Positions 1,082 through 33,149 of a DNA stretch of 33,265 nt are shown piece by piece. The position numbers and the translations under genes are program-made. The number at the start of each line of letters is the position of its first letter. The stretch's first letter is position 1. The stretch spans positions 1-33,265 of the forward strand of contig JAGOVS010000018.1 of assembly GCA_018060625.1 (NCBI GenBank). Direction: 5' to 3'. The notes below the pieces were generated by a model, which worked only from the letters and a program-made list of their open reading frames with translations, was not told the DNA's origin and made no database searches. This DNA comes from Bacteriovorax sp. (lineage in GTDB: Bacteria > Bdellovibrionota > Bacteriovoracia > Bacteriovoracales > Bacteriovoracaceae).

Positions 1082-1720
1082 TTAAATTACACATTTTTCT
1101 TCTGATTCTTTAAATTCTTTCTTAACAACTAATAAGATTTTATAAGAAGCTGATACCGAAAGATAGGCCATCAAGATAGCGACAATTAAATCTGGCCATT
1201 TCGATGAAAAGTAATAAACACCACTCGAAGCAATAATAACGGCCAAATTTCCGATAGCATCATTTCTTGAACAAAGCCACACCGATTGCATATTGCTGTC
1301 TCCCTCTTTAAACTTAAAAAGAAGAAATGCAACAAAACCATTAATGATCAAAGCAAGGCTTCCTACCCAAGTCATAGTAAAATAATTTGGGACTGAGTCA
1401 CTGTAAAAACGAATTATGGCATCGCCTAAAACCCAAATTCCAAACCCAAGCATAAAAAATGCTTTAAGAAGTGAAACTTTCGCCCTTGAACGAATCGCTG
1501 AACTAAGAACAAAAAGAGTAATGAAATAATTAACACTGTCCCCTAAGAAATCAATAGCATCAGCTCGTAAAGATAAAGACTGCGATAAAACACCTTGAAT
1601 ATTTTCAAGAAAAAACATCGAGAAATTTAAAACAAGAGCTATCCACAATGCTCTTTTGAAATTTTTATTCACTTCATTTATTTTGACATCTAAACCATTA
1701 CCACAACAATGATCACTCAT
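1082..1720 (-). CDS. CDF-type cation transporter, short form
   Basis: Membrane protein of 212 residues of the cation diffusion facilitator type, with about six helices and no cytoplasmic C-terminal domain. After the cysteine-rich N-terminus MSDHCCGNG, helix 2 carries acidic metal-site positions (RADAIDFLGD, D54, D57 and D61 in place of the common HxxxD), and a second site is suggested by NDAIGN. The start at 1720 is chosen because GGAGAAA lies just upstream; longer frames add 50 residues that do not look like protein of this family. It is divergent from the MerR-type gene, so the regulator may also control it. The likely substrate is Zn, Cd or another divalent metal; the sequence does not decide. 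Confidence 0.8.
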   Translation of the reverse strand: MSDHCCGNGLDVKINEVNKNFKRALWIALVLNFSMFFLENIQGVLSQSLSLRADAIDFLGDSVNYFITLFVLSSAIRSRAKVSLLKAFFMLGFGIWVLGDAIIRFYSDSVPNYFTMTWVGSLALIINGFVAFLLFKFKEGDSNMQSVWLCSRNDAIGNLAVIIASSGVYYFSSKWPDLIVAILMAYLSVSASYKILLVVKKEFKESEEKCVI

Positions 1721-1798
1721 GTTTTTCTCCACTATTTTCGTTGATCCAACTATCAAATTATGAACATAAAGAATTTCCCAACGGCCGCAAATTTCCCC

Positions 1799-1830
1799 TT
1801 GACCATGTACCCAAGTACATAGTTTATAAT
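1799..1830 (+). promoter_or_regulatory. MerR-type promoter with 20-bp spacer and central dyad
   Basis: TTGACC (1799-1804) and TATAAT (1825-1830) are separated by 20 bases instead of the usual 17. The spacer contains a perfect dyad, ATGTAC-CCAA-GTACAT (1805-1820). Overlong spacers with a dyad between -35 and -10 are the hallmark of promoters that MerR-family regulators activate by DNA distortion. The first downstream gene encodes such a regulator, so the operon is probably autoregulated and metal-inducible. Confidence 0.85.
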
Positions 1831-1851
1831 AAACAAGCAAGGAGATCAAAG

Positions 1852-2286
1852 ATGACCGAACATGCACCATTAATGACCATTGGAAAACTGGCCAAGGCCC
1901 TCGGTCTTAACAGTGAAACGATACGATATTATCAACGTGAAGGAATGATTAGACAACCAGCTAAAGGAAATAATGGCTATCGTTACTACAGCAATGAGCA
2001 TCTTTCACGAATTATCTTTATTAAAAAGGCCCAGGAACTAGGCTTTTCATTGGCAGAAATAAAAGAACTTCTAGAACTTAACACAAAGCCAAAACTCACT
2101 TGTGCCAGCGTAAAACAAAAAACAATCGCCAAAATCAAAGAAATTGATTCAAAAATGGCCGATTTGCAAAGAATGAAAAGCAGCTTAGAGAAACTATCCA
2201 ACGCTTGTGATGCAAGCCAAGATCAAATTAGACAATTCAAGGTTCAGGAATGCTTCACCATTGGTCTGGATTGTAATTGCTCATAA
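1852..2286 (+). CDS. MerR-family metal-responsive transcriptional regulator
   Basis: Protein of 144 residues with the MerR layout: an N-terminal winged HTH (MTIGKLAKALGLNSETIRYY), a wing segment (NGYRYYSNEHLSRI), a long dimerisation helix and a C-terminal cysteine-rich end. Cysteines are C84, C119, C134, C141 and C143. The 35-residue distance between C84 and C119 is the same as in MerR (C82/C117) and ZntR (C79/C114), so this is a metal or metalloid sensor rather than a drug sensor. The start at 1852 follows AAGGAGAT (1839-1846). It leads an operon with arsenic-type resistance genes, where an ArsR repressor would be more usual. The inducer (As, Cd, Hg, Zn) cannot be fixed from sequence. Confidence 0.9.
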   Translation: MTEHAPLMTIGKLAKALGLNSETIRYYQREGMIRQPAKGNNGYRYYSNEHLSRIIFIKKAQELGFSLAEIKELLELNTKPKLTCASVKQKTIAKIKEIDSKMADLQRMKSSLEKLSNACDASQDQIRQFKVQECFTIGLDCNCS

Positions 2287-2301
2287 AAAAAAGGAGATAT
2301 C

Positions 2302-2754
2302 ATGAAACGTTTTCACATTCACATTGGAGTAAAAGATCTAAACGAGTCCGTTCAATTTTATTCAACTCTTTTTGGACAAGCACCATCTAAAATAAAAGAC
2401 GATTATGCTAAATGGATGCTTGAAGATCCAAGAATCAATTTTGCAATATCAACTAGAGCTAATAAAGAAGGTGTCGATCATCTTGGACTTCAAGTAGACC
2501 AAGAACATGAGCTTGCAGAACTTACTACGCGATTAAAAAAGGCAGATCTTGGTGTATTTGATGAAGGAGAAACAACTTGTTGCTACTCTGAATCAACTAA
2601 GGCCTGGGTTAAAGATCCATCAGGTATAGCCTGGGAAGCCTATCACACAATGGCAGATAGTGAGATTTTCAGCGAAAAATCTAAAACCTTGGATTCTACA
2701 AAGAGTGCTTGTTGCGCTCCTGTATTAAATAAATCCAAATCAAGTTGCTGTTAG
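2302..2754 (+). CDS. ArsI/CadI-family metalloenzyme (vicinal oxygen chelate fold)
   Basis: Protein of 150 residues in the glyoxalase/vicinal-oxygen-chelate superfamily, ArsI/CadI branch. ArsI members are Fe(II) dioxygenases that break the C-As bond of trivalent organoarsenicals; CadI members are linked to cadmium. Visible features are the N-terminal metal-site strand with H5 and H7, H60 in the second strand (VDHLGLQV), the vicinal pair C93-C94 in ETTCCYS, and E112 in AWEAYHT. These match the metal triad and thiol pair known for ArsI. The C-terminal tail adds two more CC pairs (137-138 and 149-150). AAGGAGAT precedes the start. The position between a MerR regulator and arsC/acr3 favours a role in arsenic detoxification. 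Confidence 0.88.
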   Translation: MKRFHIHIGVKDLNESVQFYSTLFGQAPSKIKDDYAKWMLEDPRINFAISTRANKEGVDHLGLQVDQEHELAELTTRLKKADLGVFDEGETTCCYSESTKAWVKDPSGIAWEAYHTMADSEIFSEKSKTLDSTKSACCAPVLNKSKSSCC

Positions 2755-2761
2755 GATAACT

Positions 2762-3190
2762 ATGAAAAAATCCATCCTTTTTCTTTGCACTGGAAATTCA
2801 TGTCGCTCGCAAATGGCCGAAGGCTTTGCTAAGAAATATTTCAGTGATAAATACAGCATCTACTCTGCGGGAATTCAAAAGCATGGCATGAACCCAAGGG
2901 CGGTAAAAGTGATGAATGAACGTGGAGTAGATTTGTCCACACATTCATCTAAAACACTTGATGACATTGGGTCTATCCTTTTTGATTATGTCTTTACTGT
3001 CTGTGGCCATGCAAATGAAAATTGCCCTCTTTTTTTAGGAGGTAAGGCAAAAATTATCCATGTTGGATTTGATGATCCTCCCAAACTGGCATTTGGATTA
3101 ACTAATGAAGAGGAAATATTAAGTCACTATCGTCGTGTTCGAGATGAAATCGAATTATTCACAAAAGAATTACAAAAATACCTGGAATAA
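2762..3190 (+). CDS. arsC: Arsenate reductase, thioredoxin-coupled (LMW-phosphatase type)
   Basis: Protein of 142 residues that reduces arsenate to arsenite. The N-terminal P-loop [10 protein letters not shown] holds C9, C14 and R15. The redox pair C81/C88 lies in [12 protein letters not shown], and the acid loop is DDPPK. This three-cysteine layout is that of the thioredoxin-dependent ArsC of plasmid pI258, not the glutaredoxin type of E. coli. It starts 7 bases after the ArsI/CadI gene and is followed after 2 bases by the ACR3 pump, so the product arsenite is removed by its neighbour. Confidence 0.93.
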
Positions 3191-3192
3191 AA

Positions 3193-4248
3193 ATGAAGAA
3201 ACTATCTTTCCTTGATACTTATTTAACCTTGTGGATTTTCTTAGCGATGATCTTTGGAATTTTTTTAGGAGTTATTTCTCCAGGCACAACCCATTTTATA
3301 AATTCATTATCAGTTGGCACAACCTCTGTTCCTATTGCCATTGGATTGATTTTGATGATGTATCCTCCGCTGGCCAAGGTAAAATACGAAGAAATTAGAT
3401 TAGTCTTTAAAGACAAAAAAATTCTTGTCTTATCACTTGTTCAAAACTGGATGATTGGCCCATTGTTGATGTTTGGCCTGGCAGTCATGTTCCTAAAAGG
3501 AGAGCCCGACTACATGATGGGACTCATCCTTATTGGCCTGGCAAGATGTATCGCAATGGTATTGGTTTGGAATCAGTTAGCTGATGGAAATTCTGAATAC
3601 TGTGCGGGTCTGGTTGCTTTTAACTCTATCTTTCAAATTATCTTTTTTCCCATTTATGCCTATTTCTTTATGACTTACCTTCCCGCGCTTTTTGGTCTTC
3701 CAAGTTTTGAAGTCAATTTTACCATGGGAGAAATTGCTCAATCTGTAGGGATTTATCTTGGAATACCTTTTTTGATGGGCTTTATAACAAGAATTTATCT
3801 CCTTAAATCAAGAGGAGAAGCTTGGTACGAGCAAACATTTATTCCCCGAATAAGTCCACTAACTCTCCTCTTTTTGTTATTCACAATTGTCATTATGTTT
3901 TCGTTAAAGGGAGATAAAATTGTCGAGTTACCTCTTGATGTCATAAAAATCGCCATCCCTCTCACTCTTTACTTTTTAATCATGTTTTTTGTATCATTTT
4001 ATATAAGTAAAAAAGTAGGAGCAGATTATTCTCGGGCCGTCACTTTATCGTTCACGGCCGCCTCAAATAATTTTGAATTGGCAATCGCCGTGGCCATCGC
4101 TACTTTTGGCATTCACCATGGAGCAGCTCTAGCAGCTGTCATTGGACCACTTGTCGAAGTGCCAGTTCTCTTAGGTCTCGTTAAGGTTTCGCTCTGGATG
4201 AAAGGACGCGCTTTTGACAAAATACAAGGAGGCAAAAACATAGCCTAA
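3193..4248 (+). CDS. ACR3-family arsenite efflux permease
   Basis: Protein of 351 residues with about ten membrane helices, typical of ACR3 carriers that export arsenite using the proton motive force. The conserved cysteine is in [18 protein letters not shown] (C119), and the conserved late segment is [20 protein letters not shown]. The N-terminus [16 protein letters not shown] is also typical. It is the last gene of the MerR-ArsI/CadI-ArsC operon. The final 78 bases overlap the end of the convergent gene on the other strand, and no terminator hairpin is visible. Such proteins are often labelled ArsB, but the family is ACR3. Confidence 0.93.
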
Positions 4249-28444: not shown

Positions 28445-28735
28445 TTACGCTGCAAATTCCGATGCATCCCAATCTGCAAAGGCAAGTAATCCTGGATGAA
28501 CATTAAGCGCTTTTCCTAAAATTTTTGCCCGACTAATCCCCATAACAATTCGATCATGCTCAAGTGATGATATTGTAGCTTGCTTTAAATTAGTTAAATT
28601 AGCCAAGTCACTTTGAGTGAGGTTATTTAATTCTCTATAAATTCTTAGTGCCTTACCAGGAGTTAGATTTCCATATCTTTTATCAGAGATAAATTCTTCT
28701 TTTAGTGCTTCTTTTACTTTTTTTCCTAATTTCAT
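28445..28735 (-). CDS. HigA-type XRE antitoxin
   Basis: Protein of 96 residues with a central XRE HTH (about 26-80; NLTPGKALRIYRELNNLTQS, LANLTNLKQATISSLEH, ISRAKILGKALNVHPG). Its ATG overlaps the stop of the toxin gene by 4 bases (28732-28735), the toxin-first order of HigBA-type modules. Antitoxins of this type neutralise the toxin and repress the promoter by binding a dyad. It is the last gene before a strong bidirectional terminator. Confidence 0.88.
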   Translation of the reverse strand: MKLGKKVKEALKEEFISDKRYGNLTPGKALRIYRELNNLTQSDLANLTNLKQATISSLEHDRIVMGISRAKILGKALNVHPGLLAFADWDASEFAA

Positions 28736-29016
28736 AATTTTCTCCTGTAATCGTGAGGAGTAACCTCGAATACAAAAACCTTAACTTCTTTTTCCATCAC
28801 TATATAAATAACTCGCCATTGATCATTAAGAGAAGAGGATCTTGCCCCTGCCCACTCACCTTTTAACGGATGATCTCTGTACCCATTTATAGCCTTTATC
28901 CCGGCCACACCTTGCAACTGGATAACATTTTTCCAAGCATCGAAATAATCGCGTATTTCAATGGGTGCCTTCTTTAGAGCTTTATCTGCTGACTTAGATG
29001 TATCAACCTTGTACAT
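28732..29016 (-). CDS. RelE/HigB-superfamily toxin
   Basis: Protein of 94 residues of the RelE/ParE fold, HigB-like branch, which cuts mRNA on the ribosome or blocks gyrase depending on subtype. Typical parts are KSADKALKKAPIEIRDYFDA, GYRDHPLKGEWAGARSSSLN, QWRVIYIVMEKEVKVFVFEV and TPHDYRR. The last R/K and H residues are in the region of the catalytic site of RelE relatives. Toxin gene first, antitoxin second, with a 4-base overlap. The promoter predicts a leaderless transcript starting at the ATG. Confidence 0.88.
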   Translation of the reverse strand: MYKVDTSKSADKALKKAPIEIRDYFDAWKNVIQLQGVAGIKAINGYRDHPLKGEWAGARSSSLNDQWRVIYIVMEKEVKVFVFEVTPHDYRRKL

Positions 29017-29208: not shown

Positions 29209-30159
29209 TCAAGTTAAATTTATAAAATTTTGATAATTTGATTTATCAATAAAACGTCGATCTTCGCTTACGTATGGAACTTCATCGATTAGTTTTAACG
29301 AGGAATTAGACTCGACCATATTATCTGGAAAAACGACTAAATTGTTTTTTGCTTTATTACGAACTGAAGGATACAAAATCCCTTGAACTCCGGCCAATTT
29401 ACAATAATGACCAAATAATTGTGATGGAGCTGGTTGATCTAACCAAGCGGCCCAAACAGGATAATGCTCATTAAAGAAAAAACTTTTTACGACTTCACTA
29501 TCTGTGGCCATTGTTAATTCTATTTTTAATTTTTTACCTAAATTTTTATAATAATCAGGTACTACTATGTCTTTAATTACATCAGTAAAAGCAACTAATG
29601 TATTATCATTTGTAAGATCAATATAATTTTCCAAATTTACTCTAACTCGATTAAACGAGAATGATTCATTCGGTTGTAATGCAAAATGTTTAAGATCGCT
29701 CTCACTTTGTTCTTCAGTTGATCTATGATATTTTTCTGTAAATGCGGTTTCATAATCCTCTGCCAAATACAAACCTATAAAGTAACTTGAAAAAGAACTT
29801 GATTGTGCAATATTAAATCTTCCGCCAGGAGGAAGTTTTACACTCCCTACTCCATTTAAGGGATCTGCTGCAAATTTAGAACTAACGATTCGCCCAAAAT
29901 CACAATTTAGATTTTCAACTTTCGTTGAATCTATTGAACCGATGATATCATCAATTCTTTTTTCGCGCTCATCTAGTAAATATTTTTGAAAGTCTTTCCA
30001 GAATTGTCTCTGATCATCTGTAAATTTAGTAATTCTTTTTATTTCATTTTCTACATACTGACTTGGTAGTAGCTTTCTAAACCCATTTCGGAGTACTACT
30101 TCTCTACCTTCTATGAAAGTCTTCAGCGATTTTAATCCGTGGCCTTTACGTTTACTCAT
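29209..30159 (-). CDS. RES-domain toxin with N-terminal extension
   Basis: Protein of 316 residues whose residues about 105-285 resemble the RES domain, NAD+-degrading toxins named for conserved Arg, Glu and Ser. Visible candidates are R114 in GGRFNIAQ, E137 or E142 in YLAEDYETAFTEKY, and S265 in LYPSVRN. The usual RES toxin is about 150-230 residues; here about 100 extra residues precede the domain, containing a charged helix (FWKDFQKYLLDEREKRIDDI). It follows the Xre/MbcA-type antitoxin gene by 7 bases, the normal gene order for this TA family. Toxin action is inferred from family; the N-terminal extension is unexplained. Confidence 0.85.
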   Translation of the reverse strand: MSKRKGHGLKSLKTFIEGREVVLRNGFRKLLPSQYVENEIKRITKFTDDQRQFWKDFQKYLLDEREKRIDDIIGSIDSTKVENLNCDFGRIVSSKFAADPLNGVGSVKLPPGGRFNIAQSSSFSSYFIGLYLAEDYETAFTEKYHRSTEEQSESDLKHFALQPNESFSFNRVRVNLENYIDLTNDNTLVAFTDVIKDIVVPDYYKNLGKKLKIELTMATDSEVVKSFFFNEHYPVWAAWLDQPAPSQLFGHYCKLAGVQGILYPSVRNKAKNNLVVFPDNMVESNSSLKLIDEVPYVSEDRRFIDKSNYQNFINLT

Positions 30160-30166
30160 CTAAAAT

Positions 30167-30538
30167 TTAATATCCTTTACGTGATGCAAATATAAATTTA
30201 AGCACGTATTGAGAACGGCCTGCCACAATTAATTGACGTGGACTTGATCCACCAAAATTTGGATTTGGAGTTTTTATCCAAAACTTTGTTTTATTCAAAT
30301 CACCATCAAATACTTCTGCGACTCGTTCAATAGCTCCTGCTAATTCGCCCAATCTTTCTTTTGTTTTTTGTGAAATACGATCCTCTCGAAGAGCATCTGG
30401 ACTCACACCAAAAATATGAGCAAGCTCCTTACGTGAAACGTCCAAAAATCCTTGCACTTCATCTATCTTTACTTCACCTGTTTCGCTAAAAAATCCAAGA
30501 CGATTTGGAAATAGTGATTCAGTAATAGTAGTCGACAT
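30167..30538 (-). CDS. Xre/MbcA/ParS-type antitoxin
   Basis: Protein of 123 residues with an N-terminal HTH region (about 26-62; EVQGFLDVSRKELAHIFGVS) and the C-terminal toxin-binding Xre/MbcA/ParS (DUF2384) domain (LAGAIERVAEVFDGDLNKTK, FWIKTPNPNFGGSSPRQLI). The conserved F-W-x-x-x-P-N-P-x-x-G motif is typical. It is expected to neutralise the RES toxin by blocking its active site and to repress the shared promoter. GGAGAAGAT precedes the start. Direct repeats lie upstream. Confidence 0.9.
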   Translation of the reverse strand: MSTTITESLFPNRLGFFSETGEVKIDEVQGFLDVSRKELAHIFGVSPDALREDRISQKTKERLGELAGAIERVAEVFDGDLNKTKFWIKTPNPNFGGSSPRQLIVAGRSQYVLKFIFASRKGY

Positions 30539-30724: not shown

Positions 30725-31876
30725 TTACCTTGAAAACAAGTTTACTACGTTATCCATAACCTCTCGCTCAGTAGGCAATATATTAAGCACCTCAGTTGCC
30801 CCTGATTCATTCACTCCTGCAAGTCTCACATAGAACTCCATCGTCTTTAGATTTTTCCAACCACAAATTTTCATTACAATTGCTGGTGGTACATTTTTTG
30901 ACAACAATTGTGTCGCAAAACAAGCTCTGAGTGCATGAAACTTCACAGAGGGGAGGCCATTATTAATTAAAAACGTTCTCAACTCTCTTGCTTGTAAACC
31001 CTTATCCCAATACCAACTTCTAGGTAGAACAAACCTTTGCTCATTATCCGGTCTAGATTCTAAATTTAATTTCAACTCTATAAAAATAGATTTGAGTTCA
31101 TTAGATATTGGTACATTTCTCCAATAACCTGCTTTAGTAGATTTAACAGAGTTAAGTCGAGAGTTATATGATTTTGAAACTCTTATTAATAAATTTTCAA
31201 AATCGATATCATCCCACTCAAGAGCATATAATTCACCATTTCGCATTCCTGTTAAAAGTGCTGTCGCCCAGATAGGATACCAAGGACTTTGAATTTGTTT
31301 TGCAAGATCGAGAAATTTTTTAATTTCCGTGAGAGTTAATATTTCAGGAACTTTTTCTTCCGTTTTTTTCAACTCTAATCCCGTAAAAGGAGAAGGAATT
31401 GGTTTCCTTATATATCTCTCTTCTATTCCATAAGTGAAAATTGCATTTATAAAACTTCTGATTTTTTGCTTTGCTCGATAAGATAAATTTTGAAGCTCCA
31501 TCGCTTTTATTATTTCTTTACCATCGGCCCTAGTTAGTTCATCAGCAGGCTTATCCATCCAACTCATAGTCCATTTTTTTACAGTCGTTGAAATATCTTG
31601 AATTGTCGTAACACTTAAATTTCTTCCAAGACCTGCATAAGAATCCTTTTCCCACTTTTCAAATAAAGTTTTCCAAGGCATTCCCAATCCAGATTGAATC
31701 CCTAGATCTTTAGATGCTTCTGCAATTAATTGCTTCTCAATTCTTAAAGCAGCTGCTTTTGATTCTATTCCTGAAAAATTTCTTTGTGCTCGAAGTGCAG
31801 GGTTTTCCTTGCTTCTAAGATTTACATAAACTTTCCAAAACACCTTCTCATCTTTGCGATATGATTTAATTCCCAT
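30725..31876 (-). CDS. Tyrosine-type site-specific integrase
   Basis: Protein of 383 residues of the phage/ICE integrase type. An N-terminal AP2-like arm-binding part is followed by a SAM-like core-binding part (about 68-160) and the catalytic domain. Active-site residues are R212 (ATALLTGMRNGELYALEW), K248, H314 and R317 (FHALRACFA), W340 in the H/W position (ICGWKNLKTMEFY) and the nucleophile Y349. All catalytic positions are present, so it should be active. Its ATG overlaps the stop of the excisionase-like gene by one base. No att site or tRNA target was identified. Confidence 0.94.
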   Translation of the reverse strand: MGIKSYRKDEKVFWKVYVNLRSKENPALRAQRNFSGIESKAAALRIEKQLIAEASKDLGIQSGLGMPWKTLFEKWEKDSYAGLGRNLSVTTIQDISTTVKKWTMSWMDKPADELTRADGKEIIKAMELQNLSYRAKQKIRSFINAIFTYGIEERYIRKPIPSPFTGLELKKTEEKVPEILTLTEIKKFLDLAKQIQSPWYPIWATALLTGMRNGELYALEWDDIDFENLLIRVSKSYNSRLNSVKSTKAGYWRNVPISNELKSIFIELKLNLESRPDNEQRFVLPRSWYWDKGLQARELRTFLINNGLPSVKFHALRACFATQLLSKNVPPAIVMKICGWKNLKTMEFYVRLAGVNESGATEVLNILPTEREVMDNVVNLFSR

Positions 31877-32151
31877 TAGAAACCTCCAATTTTTTGAGCA
31901 TTTTCAAGTAGGGAATCCAAATCCTTTCTTTTAAAATAGAGTCGTCTTTGAAATTTACGAGCAGAAATTTGTCCTCGACAAACTGCTGTTCTCAAAGCAC
32001 CGACAGTCATTCTTAAATAGAAAGCCGCTTCTTCACTATTCATCCATATTAGATTGTTAAAGAACTTCATTGATCCGCTTGAATCAACGGACTCAGTATA
32101 TTCTTTTTTATTCAAAATGTAATGTGAGATTGATAATTCATTATTTGTCAT
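31876..32151 (-). CDS. Excisionase-like HTH protein
   Basis: Protein of 91 residues ending in a MerR/excisionase-type HTH (LIWMNSEEAAFYLRMTVGAL, QISARKFQRRLYFKRKDLDS), the HTH_17 style of small Xis proteins. The first 35 residues have no recognised fold. The start at 32151 has AAAGGA upstream. It sits directly before the integrase gene with TAATG overlap, so it may act as the directionality factor or as a regulator of the integrase. Confidence 0.8.
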   Translation of the reverse strand: MTNNELSISHYILNKKEYTESVDSSGSMKFFNNLIWMNSEEAAFYLRMTVGALRTAVCRGQISARKFQRRLYFKRKDLDSLLENAQKIGGF

Positions 32152-32171
32152 CAAATTCCTTTGCTAAGTTA

Positions 32172-32474
32172 TTAAAGTAACGACTGCCCAATAGAAAATG
32201 CCCTTACTTCAAAGTACTCTTTTTCAAGTCCTTCCTTGTTGGTAAACGTTTTTAAGAATACATGGCCTCGCACAAAAACCTCATTTCCTTTTCGAAGATG
32301 AACCGAGCATAGTTCTGCCAATCTTCCAAAGACTACAACTTTACGCCATATAGTCGCGCTTTGATCATTAACAATACCTACGGACATTTCGCAAACAGGT
32401 TCGCCTTTTCTTGTATAAGCGAGATAGGGATTAATTCCAAGACGGCCAGCAATTAATTCAATCTTGTTATGCAT
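32172..32474 (-). CDS. Short single-stranded DNA-binding protein
   Basis: Protein of 100 residues with an SSB-type OB fold: N-terminal ELIAGRLGINPYLAYTRKGE, then CEMSVGIV, TIWRKVVVFGRLAELCSVHL, KGNEVFVRGHVFLKTF and EVRAFSIG. The acidic C-terminal tail that recruits partner proteins in housekeeping SSB is missing, and the OB domain is trimmed. Such short SSBs are common on mobile elements. AAGGAG precedes the start. It implies that the element goes through a single-stranded stage, as in conjugative or rolling-circle transfer. Confidence 0.87.
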   Translation of the reverse strand: MHNKIELIAGRLGINPYLAYTRKGEPVCEMSVGIVNDQSATIWRKVVVFGRLAELCSVHLRKGNEVFVRGHVFLKTFTNKEGLEKEYFEVRAFSIGQSLL

Positions 32475-32492: not shown

Positions 32493-32870
32493 TTAAATAC
32501 TAAGTTTCTTCACAAGAAATTCACCAAGAGTGAGCGATGTTTTATTCTTTTCATTATGATCATCCAATAATCGCTTCACTCGTTCCATTTCGCTTAAGCT
32601 TTGATCTTGAATTTTTTCAATATCCTTGGAATTAAGCTTCGGAATCGCATAAATTACCAAGTCCCTAAAATTAATCTCTCGTCCGTACGCTTTATTATTA
32701 GCTTCAGACAACAGTTTAGTTACCAACAACAGAACTTCTTGATCATCACCCAAATCAACAAAAAATTTATTCTTCTGCTCTTCTTTTCTCTCCTCTCCCT
32801 CCTTTTTCTTGCTCTTTCTCCCTCTCTTCTTCTCCTCTTTCCCATCTCTATTAATTACTACATCTCTCAT
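32493..32870 (-). CDS. Lysine-rich unknown protein, first gene of integration module
   Basis: Protein of 125 residues. The first 35 residues are extremely rich in Lys, Glu and Arg (KEEKKRGRKSKKKEGEERKE), giving a purine-only DNA stretch. The rest is a compact, mostly helical domain (FVDLGDDQEVLLLVTKLLSE, INFRDLVIYAIPKLN, TLGEFLVKKLS). The basic tail suggests nucleic-acid binding. It starts 17 bases from the nested inverted repeat and is followed by ssb, the excisionase-like gene and integrase. No family recognised. Confidence 0.7.
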   Translation of the reverse strand: MRDVVINRDGKEEKKRGRKSKKKEGEERKEEQKNKFFVDLGDDQEVLLLVTKLLSEANNKAYGREINFRDLVIYAIPKLNSKDIEKIQDQSLSEMERVKRLLDDHNEKNKTSLTLGEFLVKKLSI

Positions 32871-32886
32871 AACCTATTCCCCTTAT

Positions 32887-33017
32887 ATCCCTGCCAACTC
32901 GCCTCTTACTCTCTATTCTCTCCCCCAAATTGACCTCATCCTCATAACTACGTGGAGAGGGGGAGGTCAATTTGGGGGAGGGAATTTCCTAAATGATATT
33001 GGCGAGTTGGCAGGGAT
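32887..33017. repeat. Nested pair of long inverted repeats
   Basis: The outer arms ATCCCTGCCAACTCGCC (32887-32903) and its exact complement (33001-33017) enclose inner arms CTCCCCCAAATTGACCTC (32920-32937) and exact complement (32963-32980). CCTC (32940-32943) and GAGG (32957-32960) can extend the inner stem. No reading frame here is convincing. The left edge is 17 bases from the start of the first gene of the integration module. Confidence 0.95.
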
Positions 33018-33149
33018 GATTTTTTCATTGGCGACAAATAATCAGCTCAAGTGCAACTCAAAACACACTTAAGTGCTATTAGAAAAAACTTCGTTAAATT
33101 TCATCCATTTTCCAAAGACGAGGCCCGTTGTGTTTATTAAAAAAAACAA

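Follow-up and report, generated by a model that had tools for sequence, protein, structure and literature searches.

MOBC relaxases are poorly understood, and few of their transfer origins (oriTs) have been mapped. The Replic_Relax family (PF13814) has been equated with MobC (PMC5357655). No covalent DNA intermediate has been seen for MOBC relaxases, and TraX binds five direct repeats situated 70-120 bp from nic (PMC12857230). In the CloDF13-related oriTs (pMET1 / HPI-ECOR31), the nic sites lie inside an inverted repeat (PMC2262945). CloDF13 itself, the MOBC prototype, carries nested repeats upstream of mobB (a mobB-like gene in our search), in which the outer arms CCGGCCCCCGTCAG / CTGACGGGGGCCGG form a perfect 14-bp stem around an inner TGACCACCC pair; a relaxase-motif fragment was found downstream of mobB. 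Plasmid pAM373 of Enterococcus faecalis has a double nested perfect inverted repeat, with inner arms of 25 bp containing a TGACC core, outer arms of 18 bp and a loop containing ACG. The repeat lies between the genes of a MOBC relaxase and a TraG-type coupling protein, and five direct repeats follow beyond the outer arm. An oriT and nic map for the pAD1/pAM373 group (relaxases TraX / Orf8) was reportedly published by Francia and Clewell in 2002. The literature that we searched on ICEs and relaxases of Bdellovibrio gave nothing specific, and no ICE of this kind was described there for Bdellovibrionota.

We analysed a window of 33,265 nucleotides from Bacteriovorax sp., which is the whole of one contig (C120), and a nested inverted repeat close to its end. 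The outer arms (32887-32903 and 33001-33017) are 17 bp long and 100% complementary. The inner arms (32915-32943 and 32957-32985) are 29 nt long and 90% paired, with a perfect core of 18 bp (32920-32937 / 32963-32980). An earlier note on this DNA had reported nested perfect arm pairs of 17 and 18 bp and had considered a chance origin negligible. Both pairs are present, the inner one being longer than stated, and chance accounts poorly for them: when the last kilobase was shuffled 60 times, perfect arms reached 12 bp at most, compared with the observed 18 bp, and none of 200 shuffles folded as well as the real repeat, for which single-strand folding gave z values of -9.1 and -10.7 (RNA, two strands) and -11.6 (DNA). 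Searched at the DNA level on both strands, the genome of the window matched at this one site only, so the structure is not an ordinary dispersed repeat; the note had named scattered arms as a refuting result. The contig stops 248 bp beyond the repeat, and neighbours on that side were therefore invisible to the note's author; the repeat's key partner is the relaxase, which lies beyond the window. Within the repeat, the conserved inner hairpin (32921-32979, minus strand, as aligned to our covariance model R1) has a TGAC/GTCA core and an ACG-containing apical part. It scored 74.6 bits with R1 (E 1.4e-18) and is probably the nic region.

All the features of pAM373 listed above have counterparts in the Bdellovibrionota loci, a likeness judged by layout. 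The direct repeats of pAM373 are 12 bp long, whereas those of Bdellovibrionota are 11 bp, and its loop is longer; moreover, it is a Firmicutes plasmid without an ssb-xis-int operon, and overall DNA identity is absent. R1 matched pAM373 (E 2.4e-5) and Peribacillus pC (E 0.0018), both over a short range, as well as pBdHAGR1 of Bdellovibrio sp. HAGR004 (E 1.2e-6), and each of these matches lies near a MOBC-like gene. In pBdHAGR1 a 20-bp outer stem is found just upstream of a Replic_Relax gene, but this is a plasmid with an only distantly related relaxase. A first relaxase query of PLSDB returned no match; a relaxase from another family led to pBdHAGR1 and Peribacillus pC. The enterobacterial CloDF13 differs in its imperfect inner stem and longer loop, which R1 missed, and in having the coupling protein MobB between oriT and relaxase. 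R1, which is supported by covariation and also recognises the pAM373 region, supplies many natural variants from which the rules of nicking and binding can be read. On 311 plasmid records, almost all of them from enterococci, there are relatives of the oriT-like segment of pAM373 (NC_002630.1, 14380-14640; L215), and some small E. faecium plasmids match it only around the inner hairpin, as oriT mimics would.

The repeat is adjoined by an operon of four genes on the minus strand. Its first gene (32493-32870) encodes a protein of 125 amino acids that has a basic N-terminus and belongs to no known family. It is followed by genes for a short single-strand DNA-binding protein (ssb, 32172-32474; PF00436, E 2.1e-14), an HTH_17 excisionase-like protein (xis, 31876-32154; PF12728, E 9e-8) and a tyrosine integrase (int, 30725-31876; PF00589, E 1.2e-18). 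The ssb-xis-int operon of the earlier note is thus correct as to these three genes but incomplete at its head, and the distance from the repeat to the first gene, given there as 17 bases, is 16 nt between the outer arm and the ATG at 32870. The 125-aa protein has homologues in 73 of the 129 genomes from this family; PLSDB held no match to it. AlphaFold models (pLDDT 61 alone, 72 with 12 relatives) brought no credible PDB match and so lent no support to a relaxosome-accessory role. The integrase had a single, distant match in viral contigs, so this is not an obvious phage module; neither the hairpin pattern nor the exact CloDF13 sequence was found in viral contigs. No tRNA genes were found within the window, and among ICE parts (T4SS, coupling protein, relaxase, integrase) it holds only the integrase, together with xis, ssb and the oriT-like repeat.

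Across the hairpin from the operon, related loci encode VirB2-like, VirB4-like, VirB9-like (CagX) and VirB10-like (TrbI) proteins, a coupling protein of the TraG/TraD type (Pfam) and a protein of about 244 amino acids, here called c2. Most of the 27 loci with the 125-aa gene have T4SS genes, coupling protein and relaxase upstream, and relatives carry T4SS, coupling protein, relaxase and integrase in one element. PF13814 was matched by 8 of 28 c2 proteins (best 5.2e-7); its curated score was reached by many related genes, and the members nearest the window gave no single-sequence match. Those from other families matched the NCBIfam model 'MobC family replication-relaxation protein', under its curated cut-off. 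Profile comparison of c2 with the MOBC relaxase of pAM373 gave E 1.7e-5 and 79% probability, and D152, E170, E172, K176 and R180 (pAM373 numbering) were invariant in the alignment. They coincide with those that Francia et al. (2013) reportedly found to be catalytic in TraX of pAD1. On these comparisons, c2 is a MOBC relaxase with the PD-(D/E)XK-type residues common to the family.

The linkage between hairpin and relaxase extends beyond this family. R1 matched 77 of the 124 genomes of the family and 90 of the 192 sampled across Bdellovibrionota, and a scan of ~85,000 species for the exact hairpin pattern gave 33 matches, all in groups labelled Bdellovibrionota. At 18 of 20 hairpin loci from other Bdellovibrionota families, c2 lies within about 15-410 bp, before the hairpin in some and after it in others, and most of these loci have no integrase nearby. 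The two exceptions are L211, near a contig end, and L213, which has xis-int only. L084 and L085 likewise combine the hairpin with xis and int, the relaxase being absent nearby; the genomes of L084, L085 and L213 hold relaxase-bearing loci elsewhere. When loci were chosen by PF13814 alone and the hairpin was then sought, it was present in 13 of 20; most of these loci, first located by a pattern independent of the relaxase, had also served in building R1.

What the sequences show directly is the structure, its covariation (see below), the MOBC genes linked to it and its occurrence at known MOBC transfer regions. A transfer origin was among the options of the earlier note, and it is strongly supported by the MOBC relaxase linkage and by the architecture of pAM373 and CloDF13. 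Because the hairpin is linked to MOBC relaxase genes across families and the same architecture is found at known MOBC transfer regions, we consider the nested repeat to be, very probably, the MOBC-type oriT of an ICE family in Bdellovibrionota. Plasmid loci, and loci with a relaxase but no integrase nearby, weigh against a recombination site, which the note had also listed. The hairpin's position near xis-int, both in this family and in the relaxase-less L084, L085 and L213, would agree with an attP-type integrase site or with an origin of vegetative replication for the excised element, but no integrase was found in the fetched flanks of the relaxase-linked loci L194, L196, L197, L201-L204, L206-L208, L210 and L212, and the hairpin is present at plasmid transfer regions. 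Furthermore, in L077, L078 and L086 the module is closely followed by tRNA genes at its integrase end, which suggests that some members have their tRNA attachment sites at that end. We regard the attP or replication-origin reading as very unlikely, while a replication role may exist alongside transfer.

In related loci with the 125-aa-ssb-xis-int operon, the nested structure lies upstream with different arm sequences and the pairing kept. The earlier note had advised looking beside homologous ssb-int modules and for covariation in the stems, and both searches were positive. The covariance model detected the hairpin in every one of the 27 longer loci that carry the 125-aa gene. When 37 inner hairpins were aligned, both sides had changed in 13 of the 17 pairs, a count biased in part by selection since pairs 11-17, and partly 9-10, were demanded by the search pattern; pairs 6-8, which were not demanded, are paired in 35, 35 and 36 of the 37. 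The covariation score of these hairpins was 0.593, compared with 0.181 when shuffled and at most 0.194 when slid. TGAC/GTCA and the AC in the loop are invariant. Of 48 related loci, 39 had an outer stem, of varied sequence, that surpassed those of shuffled flanks (p <= 0.025); in the other 9 it was not significant.

The share of G-U pairs was 4.6% for one strand and 3.8% for the other, and such rare G-U pairs, similar on both strands, fit DNA better than RNA. This bears on the 5' RNA leader considered in the earlier note, in which a leftward transcript would regulate the 125-aa gene, ssb, xis and int, and on the related idea that the relaxase or the 125-aa protein uses the repeat as its operator. 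In the window alone, the stable fold and the gap of only 16 nt between outer stem and first start codon would suit such a leader, but elsewhere the hairpin stands before or after the relaxase gene without a fixed downstream gene, the G-U frequencies reveal no RNA-strand bias, and an Rfam scan gave no match. A leader or operator in place of an oriT is extremely unlikely in our view; autoregulation may occur alongside the transfer role.

The hairpin might also act as an Frpo-like single-strand DNA promoter or leading-region site, driving early expression of the 125-aa-ssb-xis-int operon from the incoming strand in the recipient. It is placed directly before an operon with ssb, as in plasmid leading regions, and the stem of many members contains a TTGAC box. 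The first T of this box, however, changes with its pairing partner (T 19, C 14, G 4), which suggests that the pairing and not a promoter box is kept, and the hairpin is also found at relaxases with no operon gene within about 9 kb. We judge this reading improbable as the main function, but an attachment-site or Frpo-like promoter role could have been added to an oriT. The neighbouring SSB, which the earlier note took to favour a single-strand role, fits a conjugative element; the structure also occurs without ssb.

Three tandem 11-bp repeats, TTAAGTGTGTT, TTGAGTTGCAC and TTGAGCTGATT, lie beyond the outer stem of the window (33040-33072, minus strand). In 40 loci, 11 was the sole enriched lag (mean z 1.99; other lags <=0.43) in the sequence that flanks the outer stem towards the relaxase. 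The repeats are probable relaxase binding sites, and their distance from the inner hairpin is comparable to the 70-120 bp between nic and the repeats bound by TraX. At a MOBC-type oriT of this layout, the winged-helix part of the relaxase would bind the 11-bp direct repeats, and its nuclease part would nick one strand in or beside the inner hairpin with its conserved TGAC/GTCA arms and ACG-containing loop. Judging from the genes present, the coupling protein would pass the nicked strand to the type IV secretion channel, and the hairpins would let the single strand fold into a form that can be recognised and, in the recipient, re-joined. The 125-aa-ssb-xis-int operon, on the side of the oriT away from the transfer genes, may then serve establishment, single-strand protection and integration.

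The window's own copy retains a remnant of the MOBC relaxase gene (33069-33128, minus strand), comprising the last 19 codons, TGLVFGKWMKFNEVFSNST, and the stop. Its translation matches the C-terminus of c2 in two related genomes (G012 and G013). Beyond the remnant the sequence is unrelated to c2, and no c2-type relaxase was found in the window's draft genome (about 91% complete). Since only these 19 codons remain and the draft genome yielded no c2, either an assembly break or chimera cut this copy short, or it is a derivative that lacks the relaxase (an oriT-only satellite). We tentatively regard it as possible that the element is a natural satellite, which kept the oriT, the 125-aa gene, ssb, xis and int and lost the relaxase bar its last 19 codons, and which belongs to phylum-wide Bdellovibrionota integrase-plus-oriT elements travelling on MOBC ICE machinery. 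Between 33129 and 33265 there are two short G+C-rich inverted repeats, one of them followed by a T run (terminator-like, minus strand); the contig may be chimeric here, or the element may truly end in this segment.

The loci L084, L085 and L213, with a hairpin but no nearby relaxase and with relaxase loci elsewhere in the genome, resemble the oriT mimics of the pWBG749 system (PMC8136818). They differ in being integrated, in having their own integrase and in the relaxase family concerned. Some genomes (G005, G039 and G128) had 15-17 R1 matches, where one site may count on both strands, and several such elements probably coexist in one cell. The R1 matches across the phylum point to a common occurrence of conjugative elements and likely satellites among these bacterial predators.

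Two toxin-antitoxin-like pairs follow the integrase on the minus strand of the window, at 29209-30538 and 28445-29016. They comprise a RES-domain protein with an Xre/MbcA/ParS-type antitoxin and a YafQ/HTH pair, and L097, L090 and L086 have related pairs close to their integrase. At the other end of the window, positions 1082-4248 encode a cation efflux protein, a MerR regulator, a glyoxalase-family protein, a low-molecular-weight phosphatase-family protein (ArsC-like) and an SBF-family transporter (Acr3-like), a likely arsenic/metal resistance cluster in which the arsenic part is our reading of the gene families.
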